From NCBI GenBank assembly GCA_002840355.1, contig PHAL01000018.1, positions 1-42,382 on the forward strand: DNA of 42,382 nucleotides. The letters run 5' to 3'. Position numbers and translations under genes: made by a program. Positions 21,884 through 42,382 of this stretch are shown one piece after another; position 1 is the stretch's first letter, and every line of letters starts with the position of its first letter. Under the pieces are notes generated by a model. The model was not told the origin of the DNA and searched no databases. It was given only the letters and a program-made list of their open reading frames with translations. This DNA is from Elusimicrobia bacterium HGW-Elusimicrobia-3. Its GTDB lineage: Bacteria; Elusimicrobiota; Elusimicrobia; Elusimicrobiales; UBA9959.

Positions 21884-21886
21884 TAT

Positions 21887-21973: not shown

Positions 21974-21984
21974 CCTGAGCAGGC

Positions 21985-23085: not shown

Positions 23086-23768
23086 TTTTGCGTCTCCTGT
23101 GCTGTGTTTGGTACGGAACTGACAAATTCGAGGGCCGCCTGGCGCACGGCGTCGGTAAATTTTGATAAATACTCCCCGTCCTTTTCAAGCCGGGCCAGCA
23201 GGCGCAGGGTTACCTCCACCTGCACGCCGCCCAGCGCGGGCCGGTTGACGATGTTCCTGGGGGAGGTGCCGGGCAGGCGCCGGCAGGGGGTCTCGGCCTC
23301 GAAGCCGGCGTCGAGCAGGCGCCGCGTCACGAGCTGCGCCGCGCGCGTATTGCTGCCGCCCACGCAGACCCAGGCGCCGCGGTCGGCCTGGGCGTGGAAA
23401 GCCAGCCCCAGGAGGCTGGAGGAGGAGAGGGCCAGGGCCGCCGGGTCGGCGAAGCGCGTGGAGGTGACGTGCAGCCGCCCGCTGTCGCCCCCCAGCCAGC
23501 CGTTGAAGAGATAAAGGTTGAAGTCCCGGCCGGCGGTGCGCCGCGCCAGGCGCGAGGTGGCCAGCTCTATGTCCCCCCCGTGCACGGCGAACACCGTGAC
23601 CGGCGAGCCGCGGTAGTAGACCTCGCGGGAATAGTCCAGCCCCTCGGTATGGGCGGCCGTCATGGAGGCGTAATCGGGGTATACGTCCCCGCCGCGCCGC
23701 ACGGAGGCGCCGGGGGCGCAGGCCGCCAGGAGTAAAGCCGCGCAGGGCAGGAGCAGGAGGTTTCTCAT
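23082..23768 (-). CDS. PghP/YjqB-family zinc amidase, lipoprotein
   Basis: A 228-residue protein with a lipobox (LLAAC, Cys17). The rest follows the poly-gamma-glutamate hydrolase (PghP, DUF867) family: VFAVHGGDIELATSRLA with His63 and Glu68, LYLFNGW, LHVTSTRFADP with His100, LAFHAQADRGAWVCVGG with His125, and a final LRLLARLEKDGEYLSKFTDAVR. These His and Glu residues are the zinc site of a carboxypeptidase-like amidase that cuts gamma-glutamyl or similar amides. Membrane anchoring is unusual for this family. Translational coupling to carbamate kinase suggests that it releases a substrate for the same catabolic route, which is inference. Confidence 0.82.
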   Translation of the reverse strand: MRNLLLLPCAALLLAACAPGASVRRGGDVYPDYASMTAAHTEGLDYSREVYYRGSPVTVFAVHGGDIELATSRLARRTAGRDFNLYLFNGWLGGDSGRLHVTSTRFADPAALALSSSSLLGLAFHAQADRGAWVCVGGSNTRAAQLVTRRLLDAGFEAETPCRRLPGTSPRNIVNRPALGGVQVEVTLRLLARLEKDGEYLSKFTDAVRQAALEFVSSVPNTAQETQK

Positions 23769-23867
23769 TGAAAACGCCCGGGCAGCCGGGTCTGGATATC
23801 ATATAAAAAATGGGGCCGCCGCAAGAAACCGCCCCGGCGCGCGGCGGCCGCCGGCCGGGCCGCCGCC

Positions 23868-23897
23868 TTGACAATACCGCGGGGAAATACCTTTAAT
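23868..23897 (+). promoter_or_regulatory. Sigma-70 promoter of ygeW
   Basis: TTGACA (23868-23873) and TTTAAT (23892-23897) are 18 bases apart. The expected start of transcription near 23904 lies at the edge of a perfect palindrome. Confidence 0.75.
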
Positions 23898-23906
23898 TGA
23901 TAGTCA

Positions 23907-23923
23907 TTGGCGCGACGCGCCAA
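23907..23923. promoter_or_regulatory. Candidate operator, perfect 17-base palindrome
   Basis: TTGGCGCG-A-CGCGCCAA is an exact inverted repeat with a one-base centre, just downstream of the ygeW -10 box, where a bound repressor would block transcription. LacI-type operators have this size and GC-centred form; the cognate regulator is not in the window. Confidence 0.6.
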
Positions 23924-23955
23924 GACGGCAAGACTCTGGAGACATTAAACCAACT

Positions 23956-25140
23956 ATGGATATCAACAACTCTATCAACGAACTCGGGAAGCTGGGCGCC
24001 GACCTCTACGGCAAGGACTTCCTGCTGACCTGGGAGAAATCCGACGCCGAACTGCACGCGGTGCTCAAGATCGCCGAGATCCTCAAGGAGATGCACGCGC
24101 AGAATATCGACGCCGCCATGTTCAAGACCGGCCTGGCCGTGTCCAACTTCCGCGACAACTCCACCCGCACCCGCTTCTCCTTCTCCAGCGCCTGCAACCT
24201 GCTGGGCCTCGCGGTGCAGGACCTCGACGAAGGCAAGAGCCAGATCGCCCACGGCGAGACCGTGCGCGAGACGGCCAACATGATCTCGTTCCTGACCGAG
24301 GCCGTCGGCATCCGCGACGACATGTTCATCGGCAAGGGCCACACCTACATGAAGGAAGTCGCCGAGGCCCTCGACGACGGCTACAAGCAGGGCGTGCTCA
24401 ACCAGCGCCCCCCGGTGGTCAACCTGCAGTGCGACCTGGACCACCCCACGCAGAGCATGTCCGACCTGCTGTTCATCAAGAACCACTTCGGCGGCTTCGA
24501 CAACCTCAAGGGCAAGAAGATCGCGATGACCTGGGCCTACTCCCCCAGCTACGGCAAGCCGCTCAGCGTGCCGCAGGGCGTCATAGCCCTGATGACCCGC
24601 TTCGGCATGAACGTGGAGCTGGCCTACCCGGAAGGGTACGACCTGCTCCCCGACACCATCGAGGTCGCCAAGAAGCACGCCGCCGCCTCCGGCGGTTCGT
24701 TCAAGGTGTCCAACAGCATGGAGAGCGCCTTCCAGGACGCCGATATCGTTTACCCCAAGAGCTGGGCGCCGTTCAAGGTGATGGAGCGCCGCACCGCGCT
24801 GCTCGAGAAGAACGACCACCCGGGCCTGAAGGAGCTCGAGAAGGAATGCCTGGCGCAGAACTCGAAGTTCACTTCGTGGGAATGCGACGAGGCCAAGATG
24901 GCGCTCACGAAGGGCGGCGAGGCCGTCTACATGCACTGCCTGCCGGCCGACATCACCGACGTCAGCTGCAAGCAGGGCGAGGTTTCCGCCAAGGTGTTCG
25001 AGAAGTACCGCATCGGCACCTACAAGGAAGCCGGCTACAAGCCCTTCGTCATCGCGGCCATGATAGCCGCCTGCTCCAAGAAGAAGCCCGCCGAGGTGCT
25101 CGCCGGGCTGATGAAGGCCGCCGGCAAGCGCGTGCTGTAA
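23956..25140 (+). CDS. ygeW: Knotted carbamoyltransferase YgeW
   Basis: The 394-residue protein tracks E. coli YgeW closely: FRDNSTRTRFSFSSA (carbamoyl-phosphate site), LDEGKSQIAHGETVRETANMIS, NLQCDLDHPTQSM, MTWAYSPSYGKPLSVPQG, YPKSWAPFKVMERRT and the active-site MHCLPADI. It belongs to the knotted subgroup related to N-acetylornithine carbamoyltransferase. Its natural substrate is still debated, and in gut bacteria the ygeW cluster takes part in purine breakdown. Working in reverse it would yield carbamoyl phosphate for the carbamate kinase divergent to it. A sigma-70 promoter with a palindromic operator and a GGAG 14 bases before the ATG lie upstream, and a terminator follows. Confidence 0.95.
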   Translation: MDINNSINELGKLGADLYGKDFLLTWEKSDAELHAVLKIAEILKEMHAQNIDAAMFKTGLAVSNFRDNSTRTRFSFSSACNLLGLAVQDLDEGKSQIAHGETVRETANMISFLTEAVGIRDDMFIGKGHTYMKEVAEALDDGYKQGVLNQRPPVVNLQCDLDHPTQSMSDLLFIKNHFGGFDNLKGKKIAMTWAYSPSYGKPLSVPQGVIALMTRFGMNVELAYPEGYDLLPDTIEVAKKHAAASGGSFKVSNSMESAFQDADIVYPKSWAPFKVMERRTALLEKNDHPGLKELEKECLAQNSKFTSWECDEAKMALTKGGEAVYMHCLPADITDVSCKQGEVSAKVFEKYRIGTYKEAGYKPFVIAAMIAACSKKKPAEVLAGLMKAAGKRVL

Positions 25141-25742: not shown

Positions 25743-26789
25743 CTAGGGCAGGTCCTGAAAGCGCAGCCGCGCGGCGGCGCGGGCGCGCGCCGGCCAGCCG
25801 GCGTAGAAAGGAGGCACGGCCGCGGGCAGCGGCTCGAAGCCGGCCGGCCCGAAAACGGTCAGATAATTAGCGTCTATGCCCTGGCAGCCGGCGCGGCAGG
25901 CACAGCGCGCGCAGCCGGGCAGGTAGACCAGGTCCTTGTAAGCCCGGCCCAGCGAGGAGTCGGCGCCCTCGCCCGGGTGCAGGCAGCCGTAGTCGGCGTC
26001 CCGGCGGGGCCGCGCTTCGGGGTAATAATCGGTCATCCGCTCTTCGAAGCCGGGCAGCAGGCAGGGCGGGAAATGCTCTATCAGCGGGGGCATGGCGGCC
26101 CGCCGCCTGAACCAGCCGAACAGGTCGCGCACGGCGGCGGCGGCCTGCGGCGCGCCGATCAGGAAACGCCTGGCGCGCAGGGCCTCCTCCACCACCCGCC
26201 CCTGGAACTTCATGCCGAACATCACATAGCGGCTCACGCCCAGGGCGCTGAAATATTCGGCGTACTGCCGCAGGTAGCGCGCGTTGCGCCGCTGCACCAC
26301 GCAGATCAGCACCGGGTATACGCCGGCCGCCAGCAGGTTCTTCACGCCGGCCACCGCCTTGCGGAAGGAACCGGGCACGCCGGTAACGGCGTCGTGCAGG
26401 GCCGGGGTATGGCCGTGTATGCTCAGGTAGGAACCGAACAGCCCGGCCTCTTTCATCCGCGCTGCGAAGGCGGGGTCGGCGTAGCGCTGGCCGTTGCTGA
26501 AAGTGAATACGCGCGCGAAGCCCAGGTCCCGGGCCAGCGCCACTATCTTCTCTATGTCTGGGTGGGCGGTGGGCTCGCCGCCCAGCAGCGACAGCTCCGT
26601 ATGCCCGCGCCGCCTGGCAGCGCGGATCTCGCGGGCCAGCCTGGCGAAGGGGATGGTGCCGGAGCGGCGCAGCTCGCCGGGGGTGAAGCAGAAGACGCAG
26701 CGCTGGTTGCAGGCGTAGGTCAGGTAGCACTCGAAAGTGCCCCTCTCCCCGGCCGCCCGGCCGCGCGTCGCCTCATTGTTCTTTTTCAT
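25743..26789 (-). CDS. Radical SAM protein with auxiliary Cys-rich tail
   Basis: A 348-residue enzyme with the SAM-cluster motif Cys27-NQR-Cys31-VF-Cys34 and the GGEP motif (SLLGGEPTAHPDI). A C-terminal tail has FPPCLLPGF, then GCLHPG and CARCACRAGC, ending in YLTVFGPAGFEPLP; these Cys residues probably hold a second iron-sulfur cluster. The same plan (PPC, Cys cluster, Tyr, hydrophobic-Gly-Phe) is found in the radical SAM genes at 37.2, 39.4 and 40.8 kb, so they form one family. It stands alone with a possible CATAAT promoter about 25 bases upstream. The substrate is unknown. Confidence 0.88.
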   Translation of the reverse strand: MKKNNEATRGRAAGERGTFECYLTYACNQRCVFCFTPGELRRSGTIPFARLAREIRAARRRGHTELSLLGGEPTAHPDIEKIVALARDLGFARVFTFSNGQRYADPAFAARMKEAGLFGSYLSIHGHTPALHDAVTGVPGSFRKAVAGVKNLLAAGVYPVLICVVQRRNARYLRQYAEYFSALGVSRYVMFGMKFQGRVVEEALRARRFLIGAPQAAAAVRDLFGWFRRRAAMPPLIEHFPPCLLPGFEERMTDYYPEARPRRDADYGCLHPGEGADSSLGRAYKDLVYLPGCARCACRAGCQGIDANYLTVFGPAGFEPLPAAVPPFYAGWPARARAAARLRFQDLP

Positions 26790-26924: not shown

Positions 26925-27815
26925 TTAGAATTTCTTCTTCAATGTTATCCGCTGCACGCTGCCCATACCCGTCTCCGGTGAAACGGCGTAGTCCAGCTGC
27001 GCTCCCAGGGCCATCACGCCGGCGCCAACACTAAGGCCGCTATCACCGTTGTCGCGCGTAAGCCCCGTCAGGCCGTAGCCGCCGCGCAAGGCGAACCCCA
27101 GATCATTACCGGTCATCATGGCATACTCGGTACCGGCGGAAAAGACCGTCTGCTTATCATAAACCAGCCTTTTCACTTCGAGCGACAGCCCCATGCCGGG
27201 CAGCACCGCCACAGTAAAGCCGGCATTGACGCTCAGCGGCAGGTTGTCGCGCTGGGACAGGTACTTTATGCCGGTGCCCAGGTTCTGCACGCCAACGCCC
27301 AGCGTGACCGGCAGCCTGCTCAGTTTCTGCCTGCCCCCCAAGTCCACGGCAAAGGCATCCGCCTTTACCCCGGCTATGCTGCTCTGGATGTATTTCACGG
27401 CGCCGCCCACGTTACGGAAGCCGAAGCCAAGGCTTACCGCCTGGTCATAGGCGCTGTAGCCACCGGCGGCACTGCCGTCGTCGGCACGCGCTTCCATCTT
27501 GCCGTTGGTCAGCCTTGTAATACCCAGCGCCAGCGACATTTTCTTAACAGGCATACCGAAACCTATAAAGTCATGGCTGGAATCCATCAGCCACTGGCTA
27601 TGGCTGAAGGCCACCTCGGGGCTGTTTATGGCGCTAAGGCCTGCCGGGTTGTAGTTCAAGGCGTTAACGCCCAGCGCCGAGGCTACCCCCGCGGAGGCCA
27701 TGCCGCTAAGTCGCGCGTCCGTGTCTATCTTCAAGAACTGCGCGCCCGTCTGCGCGGCGTTGGCCGCGGCGGAAACCAGCAGGATAGCGGAAAATATTTT
27801 TATGGTGTTTTTCAT
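26925..27815 (-). CDS. PorV/PorQ-like outer-membrane barrel protein
   Basis: A 296-residue precursor with signal peptide (ILLVSAAANAA). The mature N-terminus FLKIDTDARLSGMASAGVA and LNYNPAGLSAI are hallmarks of the UPF0164/PorV-PorQ family, and the protein ends in LKKKF with a terminal Phe. In Bacteroidetes PorV shuttles type IX secretion cargo and helps to attach it to the surface. Here it lies 8 bases after the gene for a giant protein with a type IX-like tail, so it is likely that cargo's partner. No type IX core components (PorK, PorL, PorM, Sov) occur in the window. Confidence 0.85.
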   Translation of the reverse strand: MKNTIKIFSAILLVSAAANAAQTGAQFLKIDTDARLSGMASAGVASALGVNALNYNPAGLSAINSPEVAFSHSQWLMDSSHDFIGFGMPVKKMSLALGITRLTNGKMEARADDGSAAGGYSAYDQAVSLGFGFRNVGGAVKYIQSSIAGVKADAFAVDLGGRQKLSRLPVTLGVGVQNLGTGIKYLSQRDNLPLSVNAGFTVAVLPGMGLSLEVKRLVYDKQTVFSAGTEYAMMTGNDLGFALRGGYGLTGLTRDNGDSGLSVGAGVMALGAQLDYAVSPETGMGSVQRITLKKKF

Positions 27816-27823
27816 ATTTTCCT

Positions 27824-30800
27824 TTACCTCACCACCGAGAATCTGCCCCGGGCCTTCAACTTCTTGCCCGCCCGCTCGGCCTCGACGGTGTAGTAGTAGA
27901 CGCCGCTGGCTATATGGCCGGTCCAGGCGTATTCGTAGGCGTAGACCAGCCCCACTGCCTGCGGGTTGCCGGTCAGGGCAGCCTCATGGGCCAGTTGGCC
28001 GGCTACGGTGAAGACCTTCAGCTTCACGCTATCAGCCGTGCCCACCTCTATGTGGAAGGTGGGCACCTTGCCGCCCTTGGCCGGGTCGGGATAGACATAG
28101 ACCTCGCCCAGCTTGAACTCCAGGGCGGAAGGTCCGGTGCCGGGCCGCAGCATCGACGGGTTGTAGCCGCCGGGGATGTAGAACTCCAGGCCATTGGACA
28201 GCGCCTGGCCTCTTGCGGCCACCACGGTGTGCGTGCCGTAGCTCAGGGCTGAAGGCACCGTGCCGGTTATCCTGGTATCCGTCCACAGGCTAAGGGCGCA
28301 CTGCACCCCGCCGACGAACACTTTGGTTATTGTGGCATCATAAGGCCCGAAGCCGGTACCGTAGAGGTTGAACACACTGCCAACCGCGCCGCTGGCAGGC
28401 GTCATGCTGGATATGACCGGCTCCTCCACGCTTATGTAGGCCGTGGCGCTTTCAGCCAGGCCGCCATTGAGATACCTCTGCACCTGCACCGGGTAAGTGC
28501 CGGCAAGCAAGTAGGGCAGTTTGCCCTGTATTTTGGTGTCGGTCCACAGGCTAAGCGCCGTGGTGGCGCCGTTTATCAGCACCTTGGTATAGTTGGCCAC
28601 GTAGTTGCCAAAGTTGTGGCCCGTTATGGTGAACGGGGCCACTACTGCGGCCGTGGACGGGCTGATAGTGTCCAGGTAGGGCGTCCCGACGGCAAAACTG
28701 AACGTAGAAGCACGCACCACGCCGCCGTTGAGGGCGCGCTCGACGACAACCTCATGGTCGCCATCGGCGAGGCTGCCGGGGATGCTGCCTTTTATCTGCG
28801 TGTCGGTCCACAGGGTCAAAGGCGCGGTTGCTCCGCCAATGAGCACCCTGGTGTAGTTGGCCACGTAGTTGCCGAAGTTGGCGCCCATTATCGTGAAGGG
28901 GAGCCCTATGGGCCCCGACGACGGGTTCAGGCCATAAGCCTCGGGCGCAGCCACGGTGAAGGCCACCGGCACGGATTGCACCTGCCCGCCGTTGAGCGCG
29001 CGTTCCACCACTACGGGGTGCTCGCCCGCGGCGAGGCTGCCGGGGATGGTGCCCTGTATCTTGGTGTCGGTCCACAGCGTCAGCGGGCAGGTAGTGCCGC
29101 CTATCAGCACTTTCGTATACCCCGCCGAGAAATTACCGAACCCCGTGCCATAGATGGCGAAAGGCAGGCCAATAGGCCCGGCGACAGGGGTCATGCTGGC
29201 CACGCTCACGTTGACCACTTCAAAGGTCATGGGCAGGGTCTGCATAACGCCGCCGTCCGCCGTTTTGCGTTCCACCAGCACGGGGTACTGACCCGAGACC
29301 AGGCTGCCAGGCACGGTGCCCTGGATCCTGGTATCCGTCCACAATGTTAACGGCGCGGTGGCGTTGCCTATCAACACCTGGGTGTAGGCGGCAGAATAAT
29401 TGCCGAACCCGACACCCGTGATGGTAAAGGGCATACCTATGGGCCCCGTGGACGGGGCCAGCCAGTAGGCTTCCATATTCCGCAAGCTGAACGCGGTGGT
29501 GGAGGTGCGGACCACGCCGCCGTTCAGGGCGCGCTCGACGAGAAGTTCGTAGTCGCCCGCCGGCAGGGTGCCGGGAATGGTACCCTGGATCTTTGTATCG
29601 GTCCAGAGAGTAAGAGGCATCGTCGCCCCACCCAACAGCACGCGGGTGAGACCCGGTACATAGTTGCCAAAGCATTCACCGGTTATGGTGAAAGGCAACC
29701 CTATGGCCCCCGACGACGGGGTAAGCGCGTAAAGCGCGGGCTGGGTAACGCTGAAAGGCGAAACCTCGGCCAGCACCTCCGCGCCCCGCTTCACAATAAC
29801 AGGATACTGCCCCGCGGTCAGCGTGCCGGGGATGGTGCCCTGTATTTTGGTGTCGGTCCATAATGTCAGCGGCGCGGTCGCATTCCCCAGCAGCACCACG
29901 GTAGTGCCGGCGGAGTATGTGCCGAAGCCGGTGCCCTCTATAGTGAAGGGAATACCGATGGGGCCGGAGGAAGGGGAAATAGGCAAAGCCGATTCCTCCG
30001 CGAAGACTATGAAATTTACCGCGTCCCCCTCTCCCATATTGCCGGCATTATCCACCGCGTTAAAATATACCGTATGCGTACCGACAGGCAGGCTGAATTG
30101 CCCGGCGTACAGATAATTCTGGCATGTTCCGCGAGGCGCCTGGGGATCCACAGGGCCCAACTCTCCACAGGTATCGGGATCCATATCAAGGAGGTAGTAC
30201 ACCGCCGCCACTCCCGAGGTAGTGTAGCCGGGCAGATCCGGGTCTGTCGCGCTCAGCGTTATCAGGGCCGAAGTGGAGATCTCCATCCCACCCTCGCCCA
30301 GGCCGCCTTCCGGAGTTACGGACAGCGCCACCACGGGCGCCGCAGCATCCGGCAACAAGCCGGCCGGCGGCTCGGTGTCGGTAAGCACGGCGAAATACGA
30401 ATGCAGCATGGAGACGGGCGCGATATAGCGCGTGCCCGATGCTGATGATATCTTTTGCTTGGGATGCTTTATAAATACTGACAAGTCGCCGCTGAATTCA
30501 TAAATATCGAAGTTTTCAGCATCTTCGCGATTCACTTCTAAGCTTACCAGCGCGGCAGGGGAGAAAGTTTTCCCCTCCGGAGACACAAAGTGCAGCCCCG
30601 TAAGTGCGGTTTTTGATTTTTGCACGACCAGCGCGGTCGACAATCCCGCGAACTCATCGGAACCGGGCATCACCGTGCGGAGAGTAATCCCCGGCTCGCC
30701 TGAAATGAAACCCATGTCTTCGGCTTGCTGTTCGTATGCGGCCGGATATACCTGCGCGGCCAGTATGAACGGGGCCAACGCGCTGGAACTCCAGCTCAGC

Positions 30801-33355
30801 GTTTTGTTGACCGCGTCCAATGCCGCATCCTGCAGCGCGTAGGTCCCAGTGCCGCTCGGGTAAAACACACCGAGACTTTCTTCCTGCGAAGGGGTCAGGC
30901 CCAGGTCACCAAAAGCCGCCCGCACCTGTACCGGGCCGGAATACTGCAGCGAACTGTCCGCGGTAAGAACCACCGCCCCGCCCAGCAGGTTTGTATGCGC
31001 GTAAGGTGCGCTGCCTGAAGTAAAGGCCAGGCTAAGCCGGCCTTCCTGCGTAACGCTAGGGAAACTAACGTTTATACGACCCCCTAGCGTAACCGAAATA
31101 TTTTCACCGGACGGGACCCGCACGGAATTCCAGGTATTGCCCAAAGCCGTACCTTCCGACAGACCAATCCCGTGGATCGCGTACAGTATGCTTGGCGAAG
31201 GAGTAAATTCAGTCCAAGCCTCGCAACTGTCAGGATCAAGTTCGCTTCTCCTGGAGCACACCATCGCCTGCGCGGCCGAGGTTGTGGCCGTATACGCCCT
31301 GTAATAGCGCTGCAGGTCAATAACCACATTGTCCCCGACGGTGTCCCTGTAACAGATAGCAATCGCATTCTCACCCTCGGCCAGGCAGTACGGCGGAATC
31401 GGTCCGCTGTCATGCCTGACGGTAAAATAAGTGCGTTTGACCAAGGCCAGGTCCTGCCCGTCCGACAGGTCTGGCTCATTGCCGGTTTTCAGCCTGAATT
31501 CCATCTCGAATAGCGGGTCGGCTAACGGCGGCACCGGCCTGGAGGCCTCGCCTGTTCCCGAGCCATAGACAGCGGTAAGATAACGGCTGACATTCTGCTC
31601 CAGCAACGTGAACCCACTCTCCGTTTTCACCGGCAACACGGCACTGCGAAGCATGGAACCGCCGGCGCTGGAAAGGGTGTCATAGATGGGCGTGGAAGAC
31701 GCGCCATTAACCAGGTCCATGACATAATGAAATCCGTAGTCAAGATGATATTCAATACTTATACCGTTCCCGGCATAGTCCTGCGCCCTTAAGACATATG
31801 CCCTTCCCTGATTCTCCCAGTCCGCAGGCGGCTGGAACCGCCAGGCCTTAAAACCAAGCCTGGAATACAACAGTAGATCCGGTTTCAAAGGATCAAGCGG
31901 GACCGTTACGTCATCAACCACATATTCCAGATTTTTAATACCGAAACTGGCAGACACATGCGCGGCCACCCGGGCAGTATAGCTGTCCTCCGTGAGGTCA
32001 TAGAGGGCGCCGGAATTCTCCGGCAGGAATTCGGCCTTAAGATCACCGACATTCAGATAAATATTAAGCGTTTTGTCCTGCCCGTTGATTGCGGCAATGG
32101 TGTATGCCCCAGTAGCCAAGTTGGAGAGGTCTTTGCTGTATTCTTCCGGGTAGGGCTGGGAATATGCGGCATTTTCCAGCTCGGCTCCGCCGGGACCTAT
32201 TATTGTTACGCTCCTGATCCCGACCGCTTGGTCGCTTATGCGCAGCGGCAAGTCTTTCTCAATGGTGTAAACGGTCTTTTCGCTTTCGGTCCACCCCACC
32301 AACAGTCCGCCAAGATCGATGGCTGGGCCGGTTGTGTCAATCGCGAAATCCACCGAATTATCTTGGGCAATATTATTGCTCAGATCTTTGGCCCGTATGG
32401 TCAGTTGATATTGCCCGTCGGGCTGAATTTCTCCATTGATTCTGCCGTCCCAGGCCCAGGTAAGATTTTCTTTTTTATATCCGCCTTCGATTTTGGGGAG
32501 TTTAACTCCATCGAGGCAGGTGTAAGGAAAAGTATGGACCAATTGTGTGTTAATAAAAAGTTCAATAGAAACTGCGCCGGTTTGAGTGTCAGAAACGGAG
32601 AATGTCAAGCCGGAAGTATCATTTACGCCATCCCCATCGGGGGTAAAAGGATTCGGCGAGGCGGACACATCGCTGATAACCGGCGGCGCCACATCTTGGC
32701 CATGCCTATACAATTCATATCCGGCCTCAAGACTAAAACCTGAGACACGTCGGACGCCATATTCAGGTTGACCGTAATAAGCCTCATAAAAAGTTACAAT
32801 TGGATCCCCCACCTCAAGATTCCCACTTTCATATAACCGAACATGGCCAGGCCCCAAGAGTGAGTCTAGCGTCTGGGCATCCCATCTTGGCACACGATAA
32901 GCAATCGTTGCCCAATACCCTGTCGCAGTATGTGGTTCTCCCCAAATATTGCAAACAAAGCCGCTACAATCTACGCCAGTCGCCCATGATTCAACACCCG
33001 CATCACCCCATTTATTGTAATGCGCTGTATGATTGCCAGCGCCAAACCCATTGTTAATATTTGAAACGAATATTCCTGGCGTGTCATTTTGACCAAAACC
33101 ATAAGCGACCCTCCCCATGTTCTGACTGGGAGCAAAATCGCATCCTTGAGACGTATAGCGCGGCAGAGTAGTAGATAATGGCTGATGGAAATATTCCCAG
33201 TGACCTTGAGCGTTTTGATCAATGTCGGTATTTTGATTGCCACAGGTAATGGGAAACATATACGCGTCTGCCGCGGGAATTTCCGCATATAGCGGCATCT
33301 TTACAAAGCACCACGTCTGCACCGCAAACAGTACGAATAACAGTCTTCGCCACAT
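27824..33355 (-). CDS. Giant secreted TIG-repeat protein with type IX-like sorting tail
   Basis: The 1843-residue precursor has a signal peptide. Residues 80-215 contain GVDCSGFVCNIW (Cys130) and GPGHVRLY (His171), resembling an NlpC/P60 amidase core, though the motif order is imperfect. Residues 231-340 follow SPNPFTPDGDGVND, the FlgD/CHU_C-like Ig type. A long Ig-like and HYR-like region comes next. Residues of about 1120-1720 hold seven IPT/TIG repeats sharing LTLWTDTKIQGTIPG. The end (VYVYPDPAKGGKVP ... ASGVYYYTVEAE ... GRFSVVR) is a type IX secretion C-terminal sorting domain. The start follows GGGGG and overlaps no gene; the propeller gene ends one base before it. Base composition becomes AT-rich toward its 5' end. 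Confidence 0.9.
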   Translation of the reverse strand: MWRRLLFVLFAVQTWCFVKMPLYAEIPAADAYMFPITCGNQNTDIDQNAQGHWEYFHQPLSTTLPRYTSQGCDFAPSQNMGRVAYGFGQNDTPGIFVSNINNGFGAGNHTAHYNKWGDAGVESWATGVDCSGFVCNIWGEPHTATGYWATIAYRVPRWDAQTLDSLLGPGHVRLYESGNLEVGDPIVTFYEAYYGQPEYGVRRVSGFSLEAGYELYRHGQDVAPPVISDVSASPNPFTPDGDGVNDTSGLTFSVSDTQTGAVSIELFINTQLVHTFPYTCLDGVKLPKIEGGYKKENLTWAWDGRINGEIQPDGQYQLTIRAKDLSNNIAQDNSVDFAIDTTGPAIDLGGLLVGWTESEKTVYTIEKDLPLRISDQAVGIRSVTIIGPGGAELENAAYSQPYPEEYSKDLSNLATGAYTIAAINGQDKTLNIYLNVGDLKAEFLPENSGALYDLTEDSYTARVAAHVSASFGIKNLEYVVDDVTVPLDPLKPDLLLYSRLGFKAWRFQPPADWENQGRAYVLRAQDYAGNGISIEYHLDYGFHYVMDLVNGASSTPIYDTLSSAGGSMLRSAVLPVKTESGFTLLEQNVSRYLTAVYGSGTGEASRPVPPLADPLFEMEFRLKTGNEPDLSDGQDLALVKRTYFTVRHDSGPIPPYCLAEGENAIAICYRDTVGDNVVIDLQRYYRAYTATTSAAQAMVCSRRSELDPDSCEAWTEFTPSPSILYAIHGIGLSEGTALGNTWNSVRVPSGENISVTLGGRINVSFPSVTQEGRLSLAFTSGSAPYAHTNLLGGAVVLTADSSLQYSGPVQVRAAFGDLGLTPSQEESLGVFYPSGTGTYALQDAALDAVNKTLSWSSSALAPFILAAQVYPAAYEQQAEDMGFISGEPGITLRTVMPGSDEFAGLSTALVVQKSKTALTGLHFVSPEGKTFSPAALVSLEVNREDAENFDIYEFSGDLSVFIKHPKQKISSASGTRYIAPVSMLHSYFAVLTDTEPPAGLLPDAAAPVVALSVTPEGGLGEGGMEISTSALITLSATDPDLPGYTTSGVAAVYYLLDMDPDTCGELGPVDPQAPRGTCQNYLYAGQFSLPVGTHTVYFNAVDNAGNMGEGDAVNFIVFAEESALPISPSSGPIGIPFTIEGTGFGTYSAGTTVVLLGNATAPLTLWTDTKIQGTIPGTLTAGQYPVIVKRGAEVLAEVSPFSVTQPALYALTPSSGAIGLPFTITGECFGNYVPGLTRVLLGGATMPLTLWTDTKIQGTIPGTLPAGDYELLVERALNGGVVRTSTTAFSLRNMEAYWLAPSTGPIGMPFTITGVGFGNYSAAYTQVLIGNATAPLTLWTDTRIQGTVPGSLVSGQYPVLVERKTADGGVMQTLPMTFEVVNVSVASMTPVAGPIGLPFAIYGTGFGNFSAGYTKVLIGGTTCPLTLWTDTKIQGTIPGSLAAGEHPVVVERALNGGQVQSVPVAFTVAAPEAYGLNPSSGPIGLPFTIMGANFGNYVANYTRVLIGGATAPLTLWTDTQIKGSIPGSLADGDHEVVVERALNGGVVRASTFSFAVGTPYLDTISPSTAAVVAPFTITGHNFGNYVANYTKVLINGATTALSLWTDTKIQGKLPYLLAGTYPVQVQRYLNGGLAESATAYISVEEPVISSMTPASGAVGSVFNLYGTGFGPYDATITKVFVGGVQCALSLWTDTRITGTVPSALSYGTHTVVAARGQALSNGLEFYIPGGYNPSMLRPGTGPSALEFKLGEVYVYPDPAKGGKVPTFHIEVGTADSVKLKVFTVAGQLAHEAALTGNPQAVGLVYAYEYAWTGHIASGVYYYTVEAERAGKKLKARGRFSVVR
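28190..29985 (-). repeat. Seven tandem TIG-repeat units in the giant gene
   Basis: Seven units of roughly 250 bases recur, each encoding SGPIGxPFTIxGxxFGNY then LTLWTDTKIQGTIPG. Units 3, 5 and 6 share near-identical stretches of codons (for example GGCGCGCTCG...), so the array may change length by recombination. Confidence 0.8.
32346..32506 (-). repeat. Inverted duplicate, copy inside the giant gene
   Basis: These 161 bases code for the segment VKLPKIEGGYKKENLTWAWD through NSVDF and recur in opposite orientation at 34502-34663 with about five differences. Confidence 0.9.
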
Positions 33356-35937: not shown

Positions 35938-37128
35938 TTACAGGAACTGCGGCAGCGCGGCGTAGAACGCGGCGGCTTTCACCAGGTCCTCGGCCGGCAT
36001 GAACTCGTTGACGGTGTGCGCGTGCACCTCGTTGCCGGGGCCGAAGCCGATGGTGGGGATGCCCAGGCGGCCGGCCGAAGCCACGCCGTTGGTGGAGAAC
36101 ACCCACTTATCCACCACGGGCATTTTCTTAAGGGCGACTTTACCGGCTTCCACGCCGGCGTTCACCAGCTTGTGAGCGCGGGGCAGCACCCAGGTGGGGA
36201 AGTATTTTTCCTGGCCCACTTTCAGGCCGGTCCAGGCGACGGCGTCGTAATGCAGCACTTCCACCTTGGCCTTGGCCCGCTTCACGGAGGGCAGGCGCTG
36301 TATCTCGGCCACCGAGCTCTTGAGCGTCTCGCCTATGGTCAGGCGGCGGTCCAGGTAGATGGTGCATTCGTCGGGCACGGCGTTGTAGGACGGGGTCTTG
36401 CACTCTATGGCGGTCACGGCCACGGTGCCCTTGCCTATGAACTTGTCCACCTTGAGCTTCTTGTTCAGGGCGGTTATTTCCTTGGTGATGTCGGCCATCT
36501 TCACGACGGCGTTGTCGCCGCGCTCGGGGGCGGAGGCGTGGCAGGAGCGGCCCTTGGTGATCACCTTCATCTCCATGCGGCCGCGGTGGCCGCGGTAGAC
36601 CTTCAGGTCGGTGGGCTCGGTGATCACCACGAAGTCGGGGCGGAGCTTCTCTTTGTTGATGATGTGCAGCAGCGGCAGGCCGTCGCAATCCTCTTCCATC
36701 ACGGAGCCGACCACCATCAGGGTGTAGTCGCCCTGGAGCTTGAGGTCCTTGATGATCTTGCCGGCGTAGACCATGGAGGCCATCGACAGCTTCTGGTCGG
36801 TGGCGCCGCGGCCGTAAATGGTGTCGTTCTTGTAGATGCCCGCGAACGGGTCTATCTTCCAGGCCTTGGGGTCGCCGATACCGACGGTGTCGATGTGCGC
36901 GTCCATCATGATCTTCTTCTTGCCGTGGCCGATGAAGCCGATGATGTTGCCCATCGCGTCGATCTTCACCTTGTCGAAGCCGACCTTTATCATTTCTTTC
37001 TTGATCAGCTCCACGAGCTTGCCTTCCTGGGTTGAGAAACTGGGGGTGCGGATGATATTGCGGGCGAAAGCGACTATGTCTTTCTTGTACTTGTTGGCTG
37101 CTTTGCGGATAAGTTCGGCGTTGTTCAT
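35938..37128 (-). CDS. ygeY: YgeY-family M20 hydrolase
   Basis: A 396-residue M20 amidohydrolase with DAHIDTVGIGDPKAW (metal Asp/His), YGRGATDQKLSMASMV, GSVMEEDCDGLPL (catalytic Glu pair), ITEPTDLKVYRGHRGR and SCHASAPERGDNAV. These match the YgeY group linked to selenium and purine catabolism rather than general peptidases. YgeY is thought to hydrolyse an amide or deacylate an intermediate in the same E. coli cluster as YgeW and carbamate kinase, both of which are 11-14 kb away here. GGAGG lies six bases before the ATG, and it is transcribed alone. Confidence 0.92.
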   Translation of the reverse strand: MNNAELIRKAANKYKKDIVAFARNIIRTPSFSTQEGKLVELIKKEMIKVGFDKVKIDAMGNIIGFIGHGKKKIMMDAHIDTVGIGDPKAWKIDPFAGIYKNDTIYGRGATDQKLSMASMVYAGKIIKDLKLQGDYTLMVVGSVMEEDCDGLPLLHIINKEKLRPDFVVITEPTDLKVYRGHRGRMEMKVITKGRSCHASAPERGDNAVVKMADITKEITALNKKLKVDKFIGKGTVAVTAIECKTPSYNAVPDECTIYLDRRLTIGETLKSSVAEIQRLPSVKRAKAKVEVLHYDAVAWTGLKVGQEKYFPTWVLPRAHKLVNAGVEAGKVALKKMPVVDKWVFSTNGVASAGRLGIPTIGFGPGNEVHAHTVNEFMPAEDLVKAAAFYAALPQFL

Positions 37129-37156: not shown

Positions 37157-38110
37157 CTATCCAATAGCTCTCTGCTTTGTAAATCTGGCCGCGGGCCGGT
37201 TGAGCGCCAGCTGCCCGCGCGCTATCTTCTTTATCACCGGGCCGGCCGCGCCGGCCGGGGCCGCCCTGAAACCCGCCTCGCCGCGCAGCGCCACGTAGTC
37301 GGCCCGCGGCCCGGCGCAGATGGCCGCGAAACCGCAGCGGGCGCAGGCCCCGACGGCGGCCTTCTCGCGCAGGTAGGTGCGGTCGCCGCGCAGCAGCGTG
37401 TCGGCGTCGCGCGCGTAAGCCTCGAAGCCCCGCAGGAAACAGAGCGGCACGCCGTCCACCAGGCAGGGCAGGCCCAGCGCGCGGGCCTTGCGCAGCGCGG
37501 CCAGCAGGTAAGGGCGCGCCTTGGCCAGCTCCGGCACCAGCCAGAGGTTCTTCTTCACCAGCCCTTTAACTTTTATGAAGTTGAAGGCGACGTAGAACAG
37601 CCCGGGGAACTGCCGCGCGGCGTAGGCCGCGTAGGCCGGCAGGTATTTGTAATTGAGCGAATTGATCACGCAGACCAGCGCGGCCGCCTCGGGCCCCGAA
37701 GCGGCGGTCTCCTTTATGGTGCGCACCTGGGCCTGGAAGGCGCCGCGGGTGCCGGTGAGCAGGTCGTGCAGTTTTTCCAGGTGGGACGGGAAGTTGAAGT
37801 GAAAATGTTTAATACCGGCGGCGGCCAGCGCCGCGCGGCGCGCCGGCGTCAGCCCCGCGCCCGAGGTGAGCAGCGTGGCGTCGCTCGTGCCTTTTTTAGC
37901 CGCGGCCCGCACCCATTTTTCCAGGTCGGCGCACAGCAGCGGCTCGCCGCCCTCGAACACCAGCGCCGGGTGCCGGCGCGCCAGCACGGAGCGGATCTGG
38001 GCGGGCGTCATGCCGCGGTCCTCGCCCTTGGCCGAGCAGTACAGGCAGGCCCGGGCGCAGCGCGCGGTCACGAAGACATTGGGGTCGGGCGGGCCGGCCT
38101 TCTTTTTCAT
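37157..38110 (-). CDS. Radical SAM protein, PPC-tail family
   Basis: The 317-residue enzyme has Cys18-ARA-Cys22-LY-Cys25 (a CxxxCxxC SAM motif) and LVFEGGEPLL. The tail has GVPLCFLRGF, then CARCGFAAIC (CxxCx5C) and GPRADYVALRGEAGF. The PLC and CxxCx5C Cys residues probably bind an auxiliary cluster. It starts three bases after the stop of the SufS-like gene and is last of a three-gene operon that begins with another family member, so the two radical SAM enzymes and the PLP enzyme likely act in one pathway. The substrate is unknown; no obvious precursor peptide was found nearby. Confidence 0.88.
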   Translation of the reverse strand: MKKKAGPPDPNVFVTARCARACLYCSAKGEDRGMTPAQIRSVLARRHPALVFEGGEPLLCADLEKWVRAAAKKGTSDATLLTSGAGLTPARRAALAAAGIKHFHFNFPSHLEKLHDLLTGTRGAFQAQVRTIKETAASGPEAAALVCVINSLNYKYLPAYAAYAARQFPGLFYVAFNFIKVKGLVKKNLWLVPELAKARPYLLAALRKARALGLPCLVDGVPLCFLRGFEAYARDADTLLRGDRTYLREKAAVGACARCGFAAICAGPRADYVALRGEAGFRAAPAGAAGPVIKKIARGQLALNRPAARFTKQRAIG

Positions 38111-38113
38111 GCG

Positions 38114-39364
38114 CTAGCCCACCAGGTCCAGGTATTTGCGCAGGGCCGCGGTGAAGCAGGCGGCGTCGGCCGGGGTATTGTAGGCGAAGAACGAGAGGCG
38201 CACCGTCTCGCTGTAGCCGGAGTTGAGGCAGGCCAGGTCGGCGCAGTGGCGGCCGGTGCGCACGGCTATCATGCGCCCCTTCGCGGCCGAGTTCAGGTAC
38301 AGCGTGAAATCCGGCACCGAGAATTTTTTCTTCAGGGGCGCCAGGGTGATCAGCGACCCCTGCAGCAGGTCCTCGCGGCGGCCCAGCACCCGCACGCCCT
38401 TCACGCCTTCCAGGCCGTCCAGGGCCCCGGCCACCAGGCCGGAGACATGCTCCCTGATGGCGGCAAAGCCCGCCCGCTGCAGGCGCGCTATGGCCGCGCT
38501 CAGGCCGGCCGCGCCCGAATAGTTCTGCACGCCGGCCTCGAAGCCCTGGTAGCCGCCCAGGTAGCTGGCCGTGTAGCGCCCGCCGGCGGCGGTGACCCGC
38601 TCCACCGTGCCGCCGCCCACGCGCCACGGGCGCAGCCGTTCGAGCAGCGCGCGGCGCACGTAGAGCCCGCCGGTAAAGAACGGCGCGCCCAGCTTGTGGC
38701 CGGAGAAGGCCGCCGCGTCGGCGCCCAGGGCCGCGCCGCCGCCGCCGTGAGTGGGCGCGTATTGCGCGTCGTCGCAGAAAAGATAAGCCCCGGCGTCATG
38801 CGCCAGGCGCGCGGCCGCGGCCACGTCGGAGACGCCGCCGAAGATGTTGGAGGCGTGGTTCAGGCAGACCAGCGCGGTGCGGGGGCCTATCAGCCGGGCC
38901 AGACCGGGCAGGTCCACGCGCAGACCGTCCAGCGGGGCCACGCGGAGCTTGATCCGGCCGGCGGCGGCCAGGCGCTCGAAAGGCAGGAAGACCGCGTTAT
39001 GCTCAAGCGGGGACAGCACCACCTCGTTGCGGCGGGGCGTGAACGGGAAGGAGTTGGCCAGCAGGTTGGCCGCGTCGGTGACGCCGGAGCAGAAGATGAC
39101 TTCCTCCGGCGAGGAGGCGCCCATGAAGCCGGCCACCCGGGCGCGCGCGGCGAGGAAATCCTCCTCCATCGCCGAGGCCAGCGAGTGCATGGAGCGCTTG
39201 CCGCCGCAGCCGCCCAGCAGCAGCATGTGCCGGCGCTGGGCGTCGGCCGCGCAGCGCAGCTTCAGCACGGTGCAGGCGCTGTCGAGGTAGACCAGCCTGC
39301 GCCCGCCGAAATCCTCGTCGAGCGCGGGGAATTCCTTCCTGAGGGCGGCTATTTTCGGGTTCAT
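38114..39364 (-). CDS. SufS-like class V PLP enzyme
   Basis: A 416-residue fold-type I PLP enzyme of the cysteine desulfurase group: VYLDSACTVLKLRC, SMHSLASAMEEDFLAARARV, LSPLEHNAVFLPFERL, FCDDAQYAPTHG, the PLP Lys in FSGHKLGAPFFTGGLYV, and RTGRHCADLACLNSG where SufS has its persulfide Cys. The Cys-Gly-Gly-Lys-Arg before SMHSL is unusual, as is the ALPFFTGG-type loop after the Lys. No SufE or iron-sulfur scaffold gene is adjacent. Flanked by two radical SAM genes with ATGA overlap at 39361, it could supply sulfur for a radical SAM thiolation or instead carry out another PLP reaction. Confidence 0.88.
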   Translation of the reverse strand: MNPKIAALRKEFPALDEDFGGRRLVYLDSACTVLKLRCAADAQRRHMLLLGGCGGKRSMHSLASAMEEDFLAARARVAGFMGASSPEEVIFCSGVTDAANLLANSFPFTPRRNEVVLSPLEHNAVFLPFERLAAAGRIKLRVAPLDGLRVDLPGLARLIGPRTALVCLNHASNIFGGVSDVAAAARLAHDAGAYLFCDDAQYAPTHGGGGAALGADAAAFSGHKLGAPFFTGGLYVRRALLERLRPWRVGGGTVERVTAAGGRYTASYLGGYQGFEAGVQNYSGAAGLSAAIARLQRAGFAAIREHVSGLVAGALDGLEGVKGVRVLGRREDLLQGSLITLAPLKKKFSVPDFTLYLNSAAKGRMIAVRTGRHCADLACLNSGYSETVRLSFFAYNTPADAACFTAALRKYLDLVG

Positions 39365-40203
39365 AGTTTTTTATGCGCGGCCATGTAGTCCTTGCGCGGC
39401 CCCGGGCACAGGGCCAGGAAACGGCAGCCGCGGCAGGCCGCCACGCGGGCCTTCTCCTGCAGGTGCGGGCCGGGGCGGCCTTCCTTCATTTTAACAATAT
39501 CGACGTTGAGGCGGTAGAAGCTCCCGAGGTAGCAGGGCGGGATATGGTCCACGTCGCAGCGCAGGCCGGCGGCGCGGCACAGCCTCAGCGCCTCCAGCAG
39601 GTACGGCTTCACCTCGCCGTATTTTGGCAGGTAACGGGCCTCGGCCCGGCCGACGCCCTTGATATAGCTGAACTGCAGCCAGGCTATGCCTTTCAGCTCT
39701 TTCGCCGCGAAAGCCGCGAAGGCGGGCAGGCTCTTGTAATTGAGAGAGCTGATCACGTGGGTGAGGCGCACGGCGGCGCCGGCCTTAACCAGCCGCCGCA
39801 CCCCGGCCAGCCGCCTGCCGAAAGCGCCGCGGGTTTTGGTTATCCTGAAGTCCGCGGCCGGTGAGGCGGCCGGAAAATTCACGTTAAAATAGCCGCCCGC
39901 GGCCTTGAGGGCCTTGCACAGGCGCGTCAATTCGCCGGCGGGCAGGCCGGCGGCGGCTATGGCGTTGGTCTGCAGCTCGGCCTTGCGGCCCAGTTTCTTC
40001 ACGGCGGCCAGCAGCAGGCAGAGACGGCTTGTGCCTGCCAGCAGCGGCTCCCCGCCGGAGATCTGCACCGGCCCGGGCGGCATGGCCGCTATCTCTCGCA
40101 GCCAGTCCCCCAGTCCGGCGGGGCCGTCCGCGCCCGCGTCCGCGGGGTAGGAGCAGAACACGCAGCGCTGGTTGCAGCGCCTGAACAGGTGTATCAGCGG
40201 CAT
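39361..40203 (-). CDS. Radical SAM protein, PPC-tail family
   Basis: A compact 280-residue member with Cys10-NQR-Cys14-VF-Cys17 only ten residues from the N-terminus, then VQISGGEPLLAG. The tail has HIPPCYLGSF, ACRGCRFLALC (CxxCx5C) and GPRKDYMAAHKKL, where the Gly-Phe end motif of the relatives is lost. It is the first gene of the operon that continues with the SufS-like enzyme (ATGA overlap) and a second radical SAM protein. TACAAT lies seven bases before its ATG and no ribosome binding site is seen, so the message is probably leaderless. Confidence 0.88.
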   Translation of the reverse strand: MPLIHLFRRCNQRCVFCSYPADAGADGPAGLGDWLREIAAMPPGPVQISGGEPLLAGTSRLCLLLAAVKKLGRKAELQTNAIAAAGLPAGELTRLCKALKAAGGYFNVNFPAASPAADFRITKTRGAFGRRLAGVRRLVKAGAAVRLTHVISSLNYKSLPAFAAFAAKELKGIAWLQFSYIKGVGRAEARYLPKYGEVKPYLLEALRLCRAAGLRCDVDHIPPCYLGSFYRLNVDIVKMKEGRPGPHLQEKARVAACRGCRFLALCPGPRKDYMAAHKKL

Positions 40204-40210
40204 GATACAT

Positions 40211-40216
40211 ATTGTA
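40211..40216 (-). promoter_or_regulatory. -10 box of the radical SAM operon (leaderless type)
   Basis: On the minus strand TACAAT is separated by seven bases from the ATG at 40203. An alternative TATACA overlaps it. No convincing -35 is visible. Confidence 0.45.
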
Positions 40217-40318
40217 TAAAGGAACCGCCCGGGATTTGAGGAAAATCTGAGCTTTCACTGAGAGTTACCGGAGTTCCGCGGGCAACAATCTAATATACCT
40301 AAACGGCAGGGGGATATT

Positions 40319-40831
40319 ATGAAAAACGGCCAAAATCCTTCGGAAGACAGCTTCAGGGCGCTGCGCAATATCGAGGCGGAACTCTTCGAGCGAGCGCCCG
40401 GCAGGACGGCCGAGCCGCAGCCTCCGGCGGGTCGGGACAGCTGGCAGCTGAACCGCGAGGTACTGGACCTGCACCGGAAATGCGCCGACCTCAAAGACGA
40501 ACTGGAAGCCGCCAGGACGCTGCTGACGGAGCAGAACGTGCTGGCCGCGTCCTCGCTGTCGGCGCTGCGCGAAGTGGGCCGCGACCTGGAGCGGGCCCGC
40601 GCGGATCTGCAGAAGAAGGAGGAGGAGAAAAGCGCCCTGCGGACCGAGCTGGAACAGGAGAAGGCCCGCCGCGAGAATATACGGGAACAGCTGGCCCGCG
40701 AGAGCGCCCACAGGGAGGAGATCAGCGGCCTGCTGCGCGGGGCCGTCCGCGCCGAGACGCCCGCCGAGACGCCCGCCAAGCCCCGGCCCGCGCCGGAGCG
40801 GCCGGGCAGGTTCGCCCGCCGGTTCTTCTAG
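40319..40831 (+). CDS. Coiled-coil protein
   Basis: A 170-residue soluble protein with a central coiled coil of about 90 residues (heptads such as ELEAARTLLTEQN, LERARADLQKKEEEKSALRTEL) and a Pro/Ala-rich C-terminal tail that ends GRFARRFF. It lies divergently from the radical SAM operon in a 116-base shared control region with GGGGG six bases before the ATG, and is convergent with another radical SAM gene four bases away. Its role as scaffold or partner of those enzymes is a position-based guess; no family is recognised. Confidence 0.78.
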   Translation: MKNGQNPSEDSFRALRNIEAELFERAPGRTAEPQPPAGRDSWQLNREVLDLHRKCADLKDELEAARTLLTEQNVLAASSLSALREVGRDLERARADLQKKEEEKSALRTELEQEKARRENIREQLARESAHREEISGLLRGAVRAETPAETPAKPRPAPERPGRFARRFF

Positions 40832-40835
40832 CGGG

Positions 40836-42029
40836 TTACAGCAGTTTCTTTATCTCGGAATACGGTTTGGCCAGTGACCAGCGGTATACGCCCCTCGTAA
40901 AACTGCTGGTCACCAGCCCCTTGGCCGCCAGCGAGGAGGCCGAAGTAAGGACGGCGTTGCCGTCCGAGCAGTCGCGGCAGAGCACGATGTCCCTGGACAG
41001 GGCCAGCACCTCGCGGGTGGAGGCCCCCGGCTTGCGCCTCAGTATCTCCACCATGCAGCGTTCGTTGTCGGAAAGGTAGATCCGGCCCCCGGGGCCGGCT
41101 TTTTTTTCGCCGCCGGGCCGGGCCACCGGCACGAAGCCGCGCCAGCCGAAGCGCTCTATATAATGCGTGTCGGCGCCGCGGCATTTTTTGGCCAGCGCGC
41201 AGCGGCGGCAGGGCGGCCCCTTCACCCTGGAGGCGGCGGCGTTGGCGTCCAGGTCGGTGCGGCCGCCGGCGGGATCGGTCACCACGGTGTTGAACAGGTC
41301 CAGCCCTATGGCCAGCGACTCGCGGCCGCGCAGGAAACAGGGCGGCGTGTTCAGGAAGAGGATCTCGCCCGGCAGGCCGGCGGCCTCCATCACCCGCACG
41401 GCCTCGGCGAAGTACGGCTCGCAGTCGGAGAGCCGAACGCCGAGCTTTTTGCAGTTGTCGGCCATGGCGCCGATATAGACCGGGTAGATGACCACGAAAT
41501 TGGTGATGCCGCGGCCGAGGTAGAACTTCACGATCTCCGGCAGGCGGGCATAGTTGCGCCTGTTGACGAGGATGTTGGTGCCGAGGCGCAGTTTCAGTTT
41601 GCGCAGGTTCTCCAGGCCGGCCAGCGCCTTGTTCAGCGCGCCCGGCACGCCCACCAGCCGGTCATGCTCTGCGGCCCGGTCGGTGGTGAACGAGAACTTG
41701 CAGAAGGTCAGGCCGGCCCGGGCCAGCGCGCGGCAGAAAGCCGGGTCCGCCAGGGCGATGCCGTTGGTCTGCACGCGTATGAAGCGGAACCCCACCGACT
41801 TGCCCAGCGCTATGACCTTGAGGATATCAGGCCGGATCAGCGGCTCTCCGCCGGTAAGGCCCAGGCGGCGGTAGCCGTCGCGGTAGGCGGAATAGATATT
41901 GCGGGCTATGTCCTCGAAAGGAGCGTTGAGCGACTTGTCGAAATCGCCCTGAGAGCAGAAACGGCAGCGCGCGTTGCAGTTATAGTTGAGTATCAGCTCG
42001 TAGCAGCGGCCTGTTTCCGGGGATCTCAT
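40836..42029 (-). CDS. Radical SAM protein, PPC-tail family, with extra C-terminal domain
   Basis: The 397-residue protein has Cys18-NAR-Cys22-RF-Cys25 and LGLTGGEPLIRPD. The tail motif NTPPCFLRGRES is followed by CRRCALAKKC (CxxCx5C), ADTHYIERFGWRGFVP. Beyond it, residues of about 325-397 form an added module (LSDNERCMVEILRRKPGASTREVLAL ... SSLAAKGLVTSSFTRGVYRW) that resembles a winged helix. The closest upstream gene ends nine bases before its ATG, and AAGG lies 13 bases upstream, so it is probably in that gene's operon. Substrate unknown. Confidence 0.88.
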   Translation of the reverse strand: MRSPETGRCYELILNYNCNARCRFCSQGDFDKSLNAPFEDIARNIYSAYRDGYRRLGLTGGEPLIRPDILKVIALGKSVGFRFIRVQTNGIALADPAFCRALARAGLTFCKFSFTTDRAAEHDRLVGVPGALNKALAGLENLRKLKLRLGTNILVNRRNYARLPEIVKFYLGRGITNFVVIYPVYIGAMADNCKKLGVRLSDCEPYFAEAVRVMEAAGLPGEILFLNTPPCFLRGRESLAIGLDLFNTVVTDPAGGRTDLDANAAASRVKGPPCRRCALAKKCRGADTHYIERFGWRGFVPVARPGGEKKAGPGGRIYLSDNERCMVEILRRKPGASTREVLALSRDIVLCRDCSDGNAVLTSASSLAAKGLVTSSFTRGVYRWSLAKPYSEIKKLL

Positions 42030-42038
42030 GGATAAATC

Positions 42039-42382
42039 TTACCTTATATGGTGAACGCGCCGGAAAGCCGGAAAACCCAGCCCCGCGGCGGCCAGCCCCT
42101 TCAGCCAGCGGCGCGCCAGCTGGCGAACGGCGGCCTGGCCCGCGAAGTAGCTCCGGCGGGCGGCCAGCGCCTTGCCCGCCGGGCAGCCGGCGGCGGCCCA
42201 GGGCGCCACCGGGCACATCAGGCCGTAGGGCCGGAAGCCGGCGGCGGCGGCGGCCGAGAAGAAGGCGGCGCGGTCACGCGGCAGCCCGGGGCCGGGAGCG
42301 CCCAGGCCGGCCAGTTTGTCGCAGGGATAGATACGCCCGTCGGGGCCCAGCGTGAGGCTGAGGCAGCCGCGCGCCGGCGGGC
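42039..42382 (-). CDS. Partial radical SAM/SPASM protein, C-terminal end
   Basis: A reading frame enters from beyond the right edge and stops at 42039. It reads RGCLSLTLGPDGRIYPCDKLAG, then GLMCPVAPWAAAGCPAGKAL and ends GFPAFRRVHHIR. The Cys-x(n)-GPDGRIYPC pattern is that of a SPASM or related auxiliary cluster domain, so this is a further radical SAM gene, the fifth in the window. The N-terminal part with the CxxxCxxC motif is outside. The next gene starts nine bases on. Confidence 0.7.
   Translation of the reverse strand, partial: PPARGCLSLTLGPDGRIYPCDKLAGLGAPGPGLPRDRAAFFSAAAAAGFRPYGLMCPVAPWAAAGCPAGKALAARRSYFAGQAAVRQLARRWLKGLAAAGLGFPAFRRVHHIR

Follow-up and report, generated by a model that had tools for sequence, protein, structure and literature searches.

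HxsC-like radical SAM enzymes and a SufS-like partner as the probable distal end of an enlarged HXS peptide-maturation cluster in Elusimicrobia

Which substrate could unite a group of radical SAM enzymes that are encoded around a cysteine-desulfurase-like PLP enzyme? The question is raised by the window, that is, the whole stretch of 42,382 nucleotides analyzed here, which forms one complete contig (C79) of a groundwater-type Elusimicrobia genome totaling 2.88 Mb in 95 contigs. An earlier note on this DNA had described such a cluster, and the description holds: the genes at 37157, 39361, 40836, and 25743 all carry the CX3CX2C motif and score above the Pfam Radical_SAM cut-off (44–77 bits against 29.5), and the fragment at the right edge is a fifth radical SAM gene. 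Paralogues of the window genes are also found on contigs C62 and C49; by our own count from a genome-wide search, C49, C62, and C79 together hold 16 of the 51 radical SAM matches in the genome. What the sequences show is which genes are present, how they are linked in relatives, their shared ancestry, their coupling, and their co-variation; all of the chemistry is inferred.

The C-terminal tail of these enzymes points to a known family. The motif P-x-C ... CxxCx5C with a following tyrosine, previously assigned to three of the radical SAM proteins, is common to all four (25743, 37157, 39361, and 40836), with C243, C293, C296, C302, and Y309 (25743 numbering) invariant. The superfamily-wide form of the HxsC-like tail, (P/Q)-x-C ... 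CxxCx5C-x-G after the radical SAM core, is likewise found here. The proposal that the tail holds an auxiliary cluster is reasonable, but the motif is not new, as it belongs to the HxsC family: the same tail, LC ... CxxCx5CxG, is present in the canonical HxsC proteins of six plasmids (Acidiphilium, Nostoc, Methylobacter, Hymenobacter, Paraburkholderia, and Novosphingobium). Judged by sequence, it is diagnostic of HxsC, the second of the maturases in the His-Xaa-Ser (HXS) system that Haft and Basu described (cited in PMC9062424).

Among NCBIfam models, HxsC and HxsC4 fit the four radical SAM proteins best, with scores far under the cut-offs. With HxsC, 39361 reaches 65.6 bits, against 28.6 for the next best family; the window proteins score 65–82 bits and F5 of the same cluster type 157 bits with the HxsC equivalog TIGR03977, whose cut-off of 267.9 bits is not reached. 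HxsC4 (NF038332) is the best radical SAM model for 25743, 40836, F8, and F9, at 85–141 bits against a cut-off of 500. No SPASM (TIGR04085) match to 39361 appears in the complete NCBIfam list at E ≤ 0.1. In a tree of 43 radical SAM sequences, the tail-bearing enzymes and canonical HxsC fall on one side of a branch with moderate support (88/79). F5 and the F5-like proteins of a second SufS locus type cluster with canonical HxsC (99/96). F2 joins the radical SAM enzymes paired with SufS in that locus type (93/92), and F2p stands beside them (98/96). This placement marks the four window proteins as HxsC-like paralogues, not as HxsC itself or its orthologues. HxsC-like arrays were also seen at L140, L147, L150, and L157, from Bradymonadales, Woesearchaeota, Omnitrophota, and another Elusimicrobia genome, and multi-HxsC clusters may be wider than the Elusimicrobia lineage studied. 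A stop codon inside the radical SAM match at C62:3260, considered as selenocysteine, is gone with a shorter alignment and therefore reflects read-through past the gene end.

A candidate peptide substrate is encoded on C49, where a 110-aa protein ending in (HGS)n-HSRGGWC passes the cut-off of the HxsA4 model (NF038313). HxsA4 scores 60–64 bits against a cut-off of 55 in this genome and its relatives, and was found in 32 of the 61 genomes searched. In this genome the HxsA4 model matches on C49 only, with no HxsA4-type precursor in the window. HxsA4 proteins of this genus are ~91–110 aa long and consist of a leader with SEEGKMLDSD.., then HGS repeats, and an end of either HGSY (or HGQW/HGAW) or RGGWC. 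HxsB reaches 479–496 bits in this genome and its relatives against a cut-off of 370, the two copies of this genome scoring 496 bits (C49) and 424 bits (C62). The HxsD-like proteins score 29 and 17.6 bits against a cut-off of 50. Among other forms of HxsA4, those of G002, G007, G008, G010, and G031 have a cysteine just before the repeats (EAAC-SHS), and distant precursors at L182, L183, L188, and L199 end in HCRGGWCNPRC, with three cysteines.

Within this genome, linkage of C49 and C62 to the window is by synteny, as they are separate contigs with one inferred gap. In the relative G014, the counterparts of the C49, C62, and C79 genes lie on one contig over ~30 kb, and the G014 orthologue of F20 (340 aa) bridges two of the contigs, with residues 1–198 at the right end of C62 and 228–340 at the window edge. 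C62 would then abut the right edge of the window with ~84 nt missing between them; the rightward extension that had been called for is thus proposed from a syntenic relative, not taken from an assembly. The gene order HxsB–F8–F5–A24–F9–(F20)–F1–F2–SufS recurs across dozens of contigs of relatives, and the syntenic clusters contain HxsA4, HxsB, HxsD-like proteins, an HxsC-like gene, U32 proteins, and an A24-like peptidase. The U32-family proteins have a shorter unmatched partner adjacent to them (L058:1160-2101, L051:590-3885), in a UbiU/UbiV-like arrangement; U32 proteins recall UbiU/UbiV-type oxygen-independent hydroxylation. Of the peptide, cofactor, or sulfur insertion pathway envisaged in the earlier note, the peptide part is strongly supported by the HXS genes and HxsA4 on C49, while sulfur insertion is only possible. 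It is very likely that the window genes belong to the HXS system, and the window probably holds the distal end of an enlarged HXS peptide-maturation cluster with its own sulfur donor.

Table 1. Features of the window and of the adjoining contig end (coordinates refer to the window unless a contig is named).
Feature	Coordinates	Strand	Remarks
F20, C-terminal 113 aa of 340; SPASM-type radical SAM	42039..42380	-	94% identity to G014 F20 residues 228-340
F20, residues 1-198	C62:8559-9152		5' part, C62 right end
F1, HxsC-like radical SAM with HxsC tail and C-terminal winged-helix-like domain (~320-390)	40836..42029	-	
Coiled-coil ORF between F1 and F2	40319..40831	+	among mapped clusters only here and in G014
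F2, minimal HxsC-like radical SAM, translationally coupled to the SufS-like gene	39361..40203	-	
SufS-like PLP enzyme, distal end of the HXS block	38114..39364	-	K224 (PLP lysine), C374 (loop cysteine)
F2p, HxsC-like radical SAM, sister group of F2, accessory	37157..38110	-	
HxsC4-like radical SAM paralogue, not in the core block	25743..26789	-	most closely related to F67 in the G014 cluster
YgeY hydrolase, flanking, block boundary, not a member	35938..37128	-	retained in G023, which lacks HXS genes
YgeW knotted carbamoyltransferase, flanking, not a member	23956..25140	+	

The genes at the right end of the window are not one uninterrupted operon, since a 633-bp gap with an opposite-strand ORF inside separates 40836 from 39361; the coiled-coil ORF is probably incidental. 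F1 precedes F2 in relatives, where its position is conserved. F2p has no counterpart at the matching place in G014 and follows SufS in G035 (another genus) and L122. The predicted fold of F1 (pLDDT 74.5) includes a C-terminal helix-helix-helix-strand-strand unit at residues 321–386 with the look of a winged helix, and it may be guessed that this unit, like RiPP recognition elements, binds the leader peptide. For the predicted fold of F2 (pLDDT 88.5), the best solved matches include the RiPP maturases SuiB and SkfB and also PFL activase and viperin; because of this mixture, the comparison establishes a radical SAM fold and not a substrate.

The SufS-like enzyme matches the class V aminotransferase family with 234 bits in Pfam. 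Its best NCBIfam model is SufS (TIGR01979), with 248 bits against a cut-off of 475. It resembles the group II cysteine desulfurases, including the E. coli SufS structures, in fold family, PLP lysine, and the cysteine of the RxGxHCA loop; both residues are kept in 22 of 22 homologues, and alignment to solved SufS agrees. Besides the lower score, it differs in its genomic partner, which is an HxsC-like radical SAM gene and not SufBCDE. The translational overlap reported previously is confirmed: the start codon overlaps the stop of 39361 in ATGA, and the stop lies 3 nt from the start of 37157. A same-strand SufS gene follows within 45 nt in 37 of the 39 loci with a real F2. Exceptions are L124 and G034, with F2 and no adjacent SufS; at L123 the SufS match lies on the opposite strand. 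In the second locus type, whose SufS is 39–44% identical, an F2-type radical SAM gene again directly precedes SufS in most copies. These loci (L070, L071, L072, L074, L075, and L076) comprise HxsC-like genes, the F2-type gene, SufS, a 187-aa protein, and an A24-like peptidase, and several of them adjoin very large secreted proteins. A role as sole housekeeping desulfurase is ruled out by the two NifS enzymes encoded elsewhere in the genome. On balance, the evidence favors a SufS-like enzyme dedicated to F2.

How such a pair might act on the peptide can be outlined as follows. HxsB and F5 would be the ancestral pair acting on the HGS repeats of HxsA4, and the HxsC-like paralogues, F1, F2, and F2p among them, may act on the same peptide in further steps or at further sites. 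The SufS-like enzyme would draw sulfur from cysteine and deliver it to F2, the partner with which it is coupled; the tail cysteines of F2 may hold an auxiliary Fe–S cluster. F2 would then either put sulfur on the peptide or have its cluster rebuilt, two outcomes that are about as likely as each other. BioB- and RimO-type enzymes provide the analogy for the auxiliary cluster of F2 as the likely sulfur donor. HxsA4 of the HGSY type at the main locus type is usually cysteine-free, and therefore any SufS-derived sulfur in the product must be inserted from outside. That sulfur ends up in the product at all is considered doubtful.

The strongest competing explanation, and a plausible one, is that SufS serves as an on-site supply or repair station for a cluster rich in Fe–S enzymes and passes no sulfur to the product. 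The demand would be high, given sixteen radical SAM proteins that would each carry two or more clusters, provided that the tails are cluster-binding, and U32 proteins are nearby as well. SufS is also missing from a few HXS genomes (G017, G032, and G034) and therefore is not essential to the HXS system. However, two NifS enzymes are already available to the cell, SufS is fixed to F2 by a 0–45 nt junction, also in the second locus type, instead of moving around the cluster, and no SufE/SufU/SufBC-like neighbor was recognized among the proteins scanned.

Co-variation with the precursor singles out a further enzyme. F20, whose gene lies between those of F9 and F1, occurs in all 15 genomes whose peptide ends in RGGWC and in none of the 16 without this end (Fisher p = 3e-9, relatedness ignored). 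The count covers genomes with the F9–F1 junction on an examined contig; for seven genomes (G062–G068), presence or absence of F20 had been noted before their peptides were known, and the earlier genomes are post hoc. Four changes are required on the F1 tree, where the three independent pairs that lie on supported branches are all in agreement; with three pairs, significance is out of reach when relatedness is taken into account. F20 may thus act on the C-terminal RGGWC, with the cysteine probably crosslinked in analogy to PapB-type enzymes. F20 is matched best by the model of these SPASM ranthipeptide maturases (NF047865), which also ranks among the top models of F30, and the acceptor cysteine likewise sits at the peptide end; the differences are the scores of 80–98 bits for F20 and F30 against a cut-off of 340 and the HXS peptide as substrate. 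A more elaborate outcome, which we regard as unlikely, is a multiply modified repeat peptide in which a relay of HxsC-like enzymes edits each His-Gly-Ser unit, F2 and SufS add sulfur (e.g., to histidine or serine) in a cysteine-free precursor, and F20, as a lineage-specific enzyme, finishes the C-terminal GGWC. A point against an enlarged HXS system is the uniformity of the HGS units, which offers no reason for ten HxsC-like enzymes.

The genomic distribution defines the extent of the cluster. SufS occurs in 32 of 61 genomes, all 32 of which have HxsB, and SufS, HxsA4, and HxsB are found in none of 24 sister-family genomes. All three are also absent from G023, a 90% complete genome of the same genus, which has an intact empty site (G023:C3, L216:1-4300): PhoH-like gene, barnase, barstar, 165 nt, YgeY, and YgeW, the first three being named by likeness to the annotated copies of relatives. 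In G012 and G030, the F10-to-SufS block sits between barstar and YgeY. SufS, or SufS with the accessory radical SAM gene as in the window, is therefore the distal end of an all-or-none block, while YgeY and YgeW lie outside it as neighbors only. Barnase-like and barstar-like genes (L050:2286-3253 and relatives) flank the HXS block and remain when it is absent. Of the two contrary outcomes that the earlier note had allowed for, neither is seen: the genes are not scattered over unrelated subfamilies, and their neighbors co-occur.

These observations bear on the view that F1, F2, SufS, and F2p merely adjoin HXS and constitute a pathway of their own that acts on a different substrate, such as secreted or pilin-like proteins encoded close to some copies. 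HxsA4 often lies 10–30 kb away, beyond YgeY/YgeW, the second locus type is close to large secreted proteins and an A24 peptidase, and 25743 adjoins a large secreted protein. The all-or-none presence with HxsB and HxsA4, the shared barstar–YgeY block with its empty site, and the common descent from HxsC-type enzymes argue against this view and leave it improbable. The secreted protein in question (1843 aa, window 26925-33355) has seven TIG domains, a weak type IX secretion (CHU_C) tail, and a PorV-like neighbor; at L080, a large protein and a PorV-like gene likewise lie upstream of F2–SufS.

The neighbors of the block could also suggest a selenium or anaerobic ureide/purine pathway, with SufS as a selenocysteine lyase acting with YgeY and YgeW. 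YgeY bears a name linked to selenium metabolism, and carbamate kinase, threonine-synthase-like, and YgeW genes occupy window 20645-25140, with YgeY nearby, a group possibly devoted to anaerobic ureide or purine breakdown. This pathway is very improbable, as G023 has YgeY and YgeW but neither HXS genes nor SufS, while G033 and G036 have HXS and SufS without YgeY; on the same pattern of retention and absence, YgeY and YgeW were rejected as members of the system. A place in a nitrogenase-paralogue or metallocofactor pathway, prompted by the mention in the earlier note of groundwater Elusimicrobiota genomes reported to combine nitrogenase paralogues with many radical SAM genes, is hardly credible, since NifH-like genes are located on C87 (C87:16230-17009, beside a radical SAM match) and C71 (C71:2050-2829), with weaker matches on C80 and C42 and none on C79, C62, or C49.

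The preferred reading, an enlarged HXS cluster, can be set against the known system (TIGR03979, TIGR03978, TIGR03977, TIGR03976; HxsA/HxsB/HxsC/HxsD). Shared are the HxS-repeat precursor, an HxsB above its cut-off, an HxsD-like protein that scores below the HxsD cut-off, and HxsC-type radical SAM enzymes with the LC ... CxxCx5CxG tail. The plasmid HXS cassettes examined are compact, with three or four genes in ~3.5 kb that include a single HxsC and lack SufS, whereas the enlarged cluster comprises about ten HxsC-like and one to four HxsB-like genes together with SufS, U32 proteins, and an A24-like peptidase, distributed over ~30 kb. With respect to HxsA4/HxsC4, the precursor conforms and the HxsC4 scores do not. 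Neither an HXS product nor an enlarged HXS form was reported in the openly licensed papers searched. HXS has already been named as a two-enzyme system, and the best reading is a variant of it, enlarged by many more enzymes and a dedicated sulfur-handling one.

This locus offers a natural dissection of the system, with a defined block and a genome bearing its empty site, a fixed radical SAM–desulfurase pair, and one enzyme, F20, whose occurrence predicts the last residues of the peptide. Experiments can thereby be directed to matched pairs of enzyme and precursor, and to the modifications expected of them, in a phylum known almost entirely from metagenomes.
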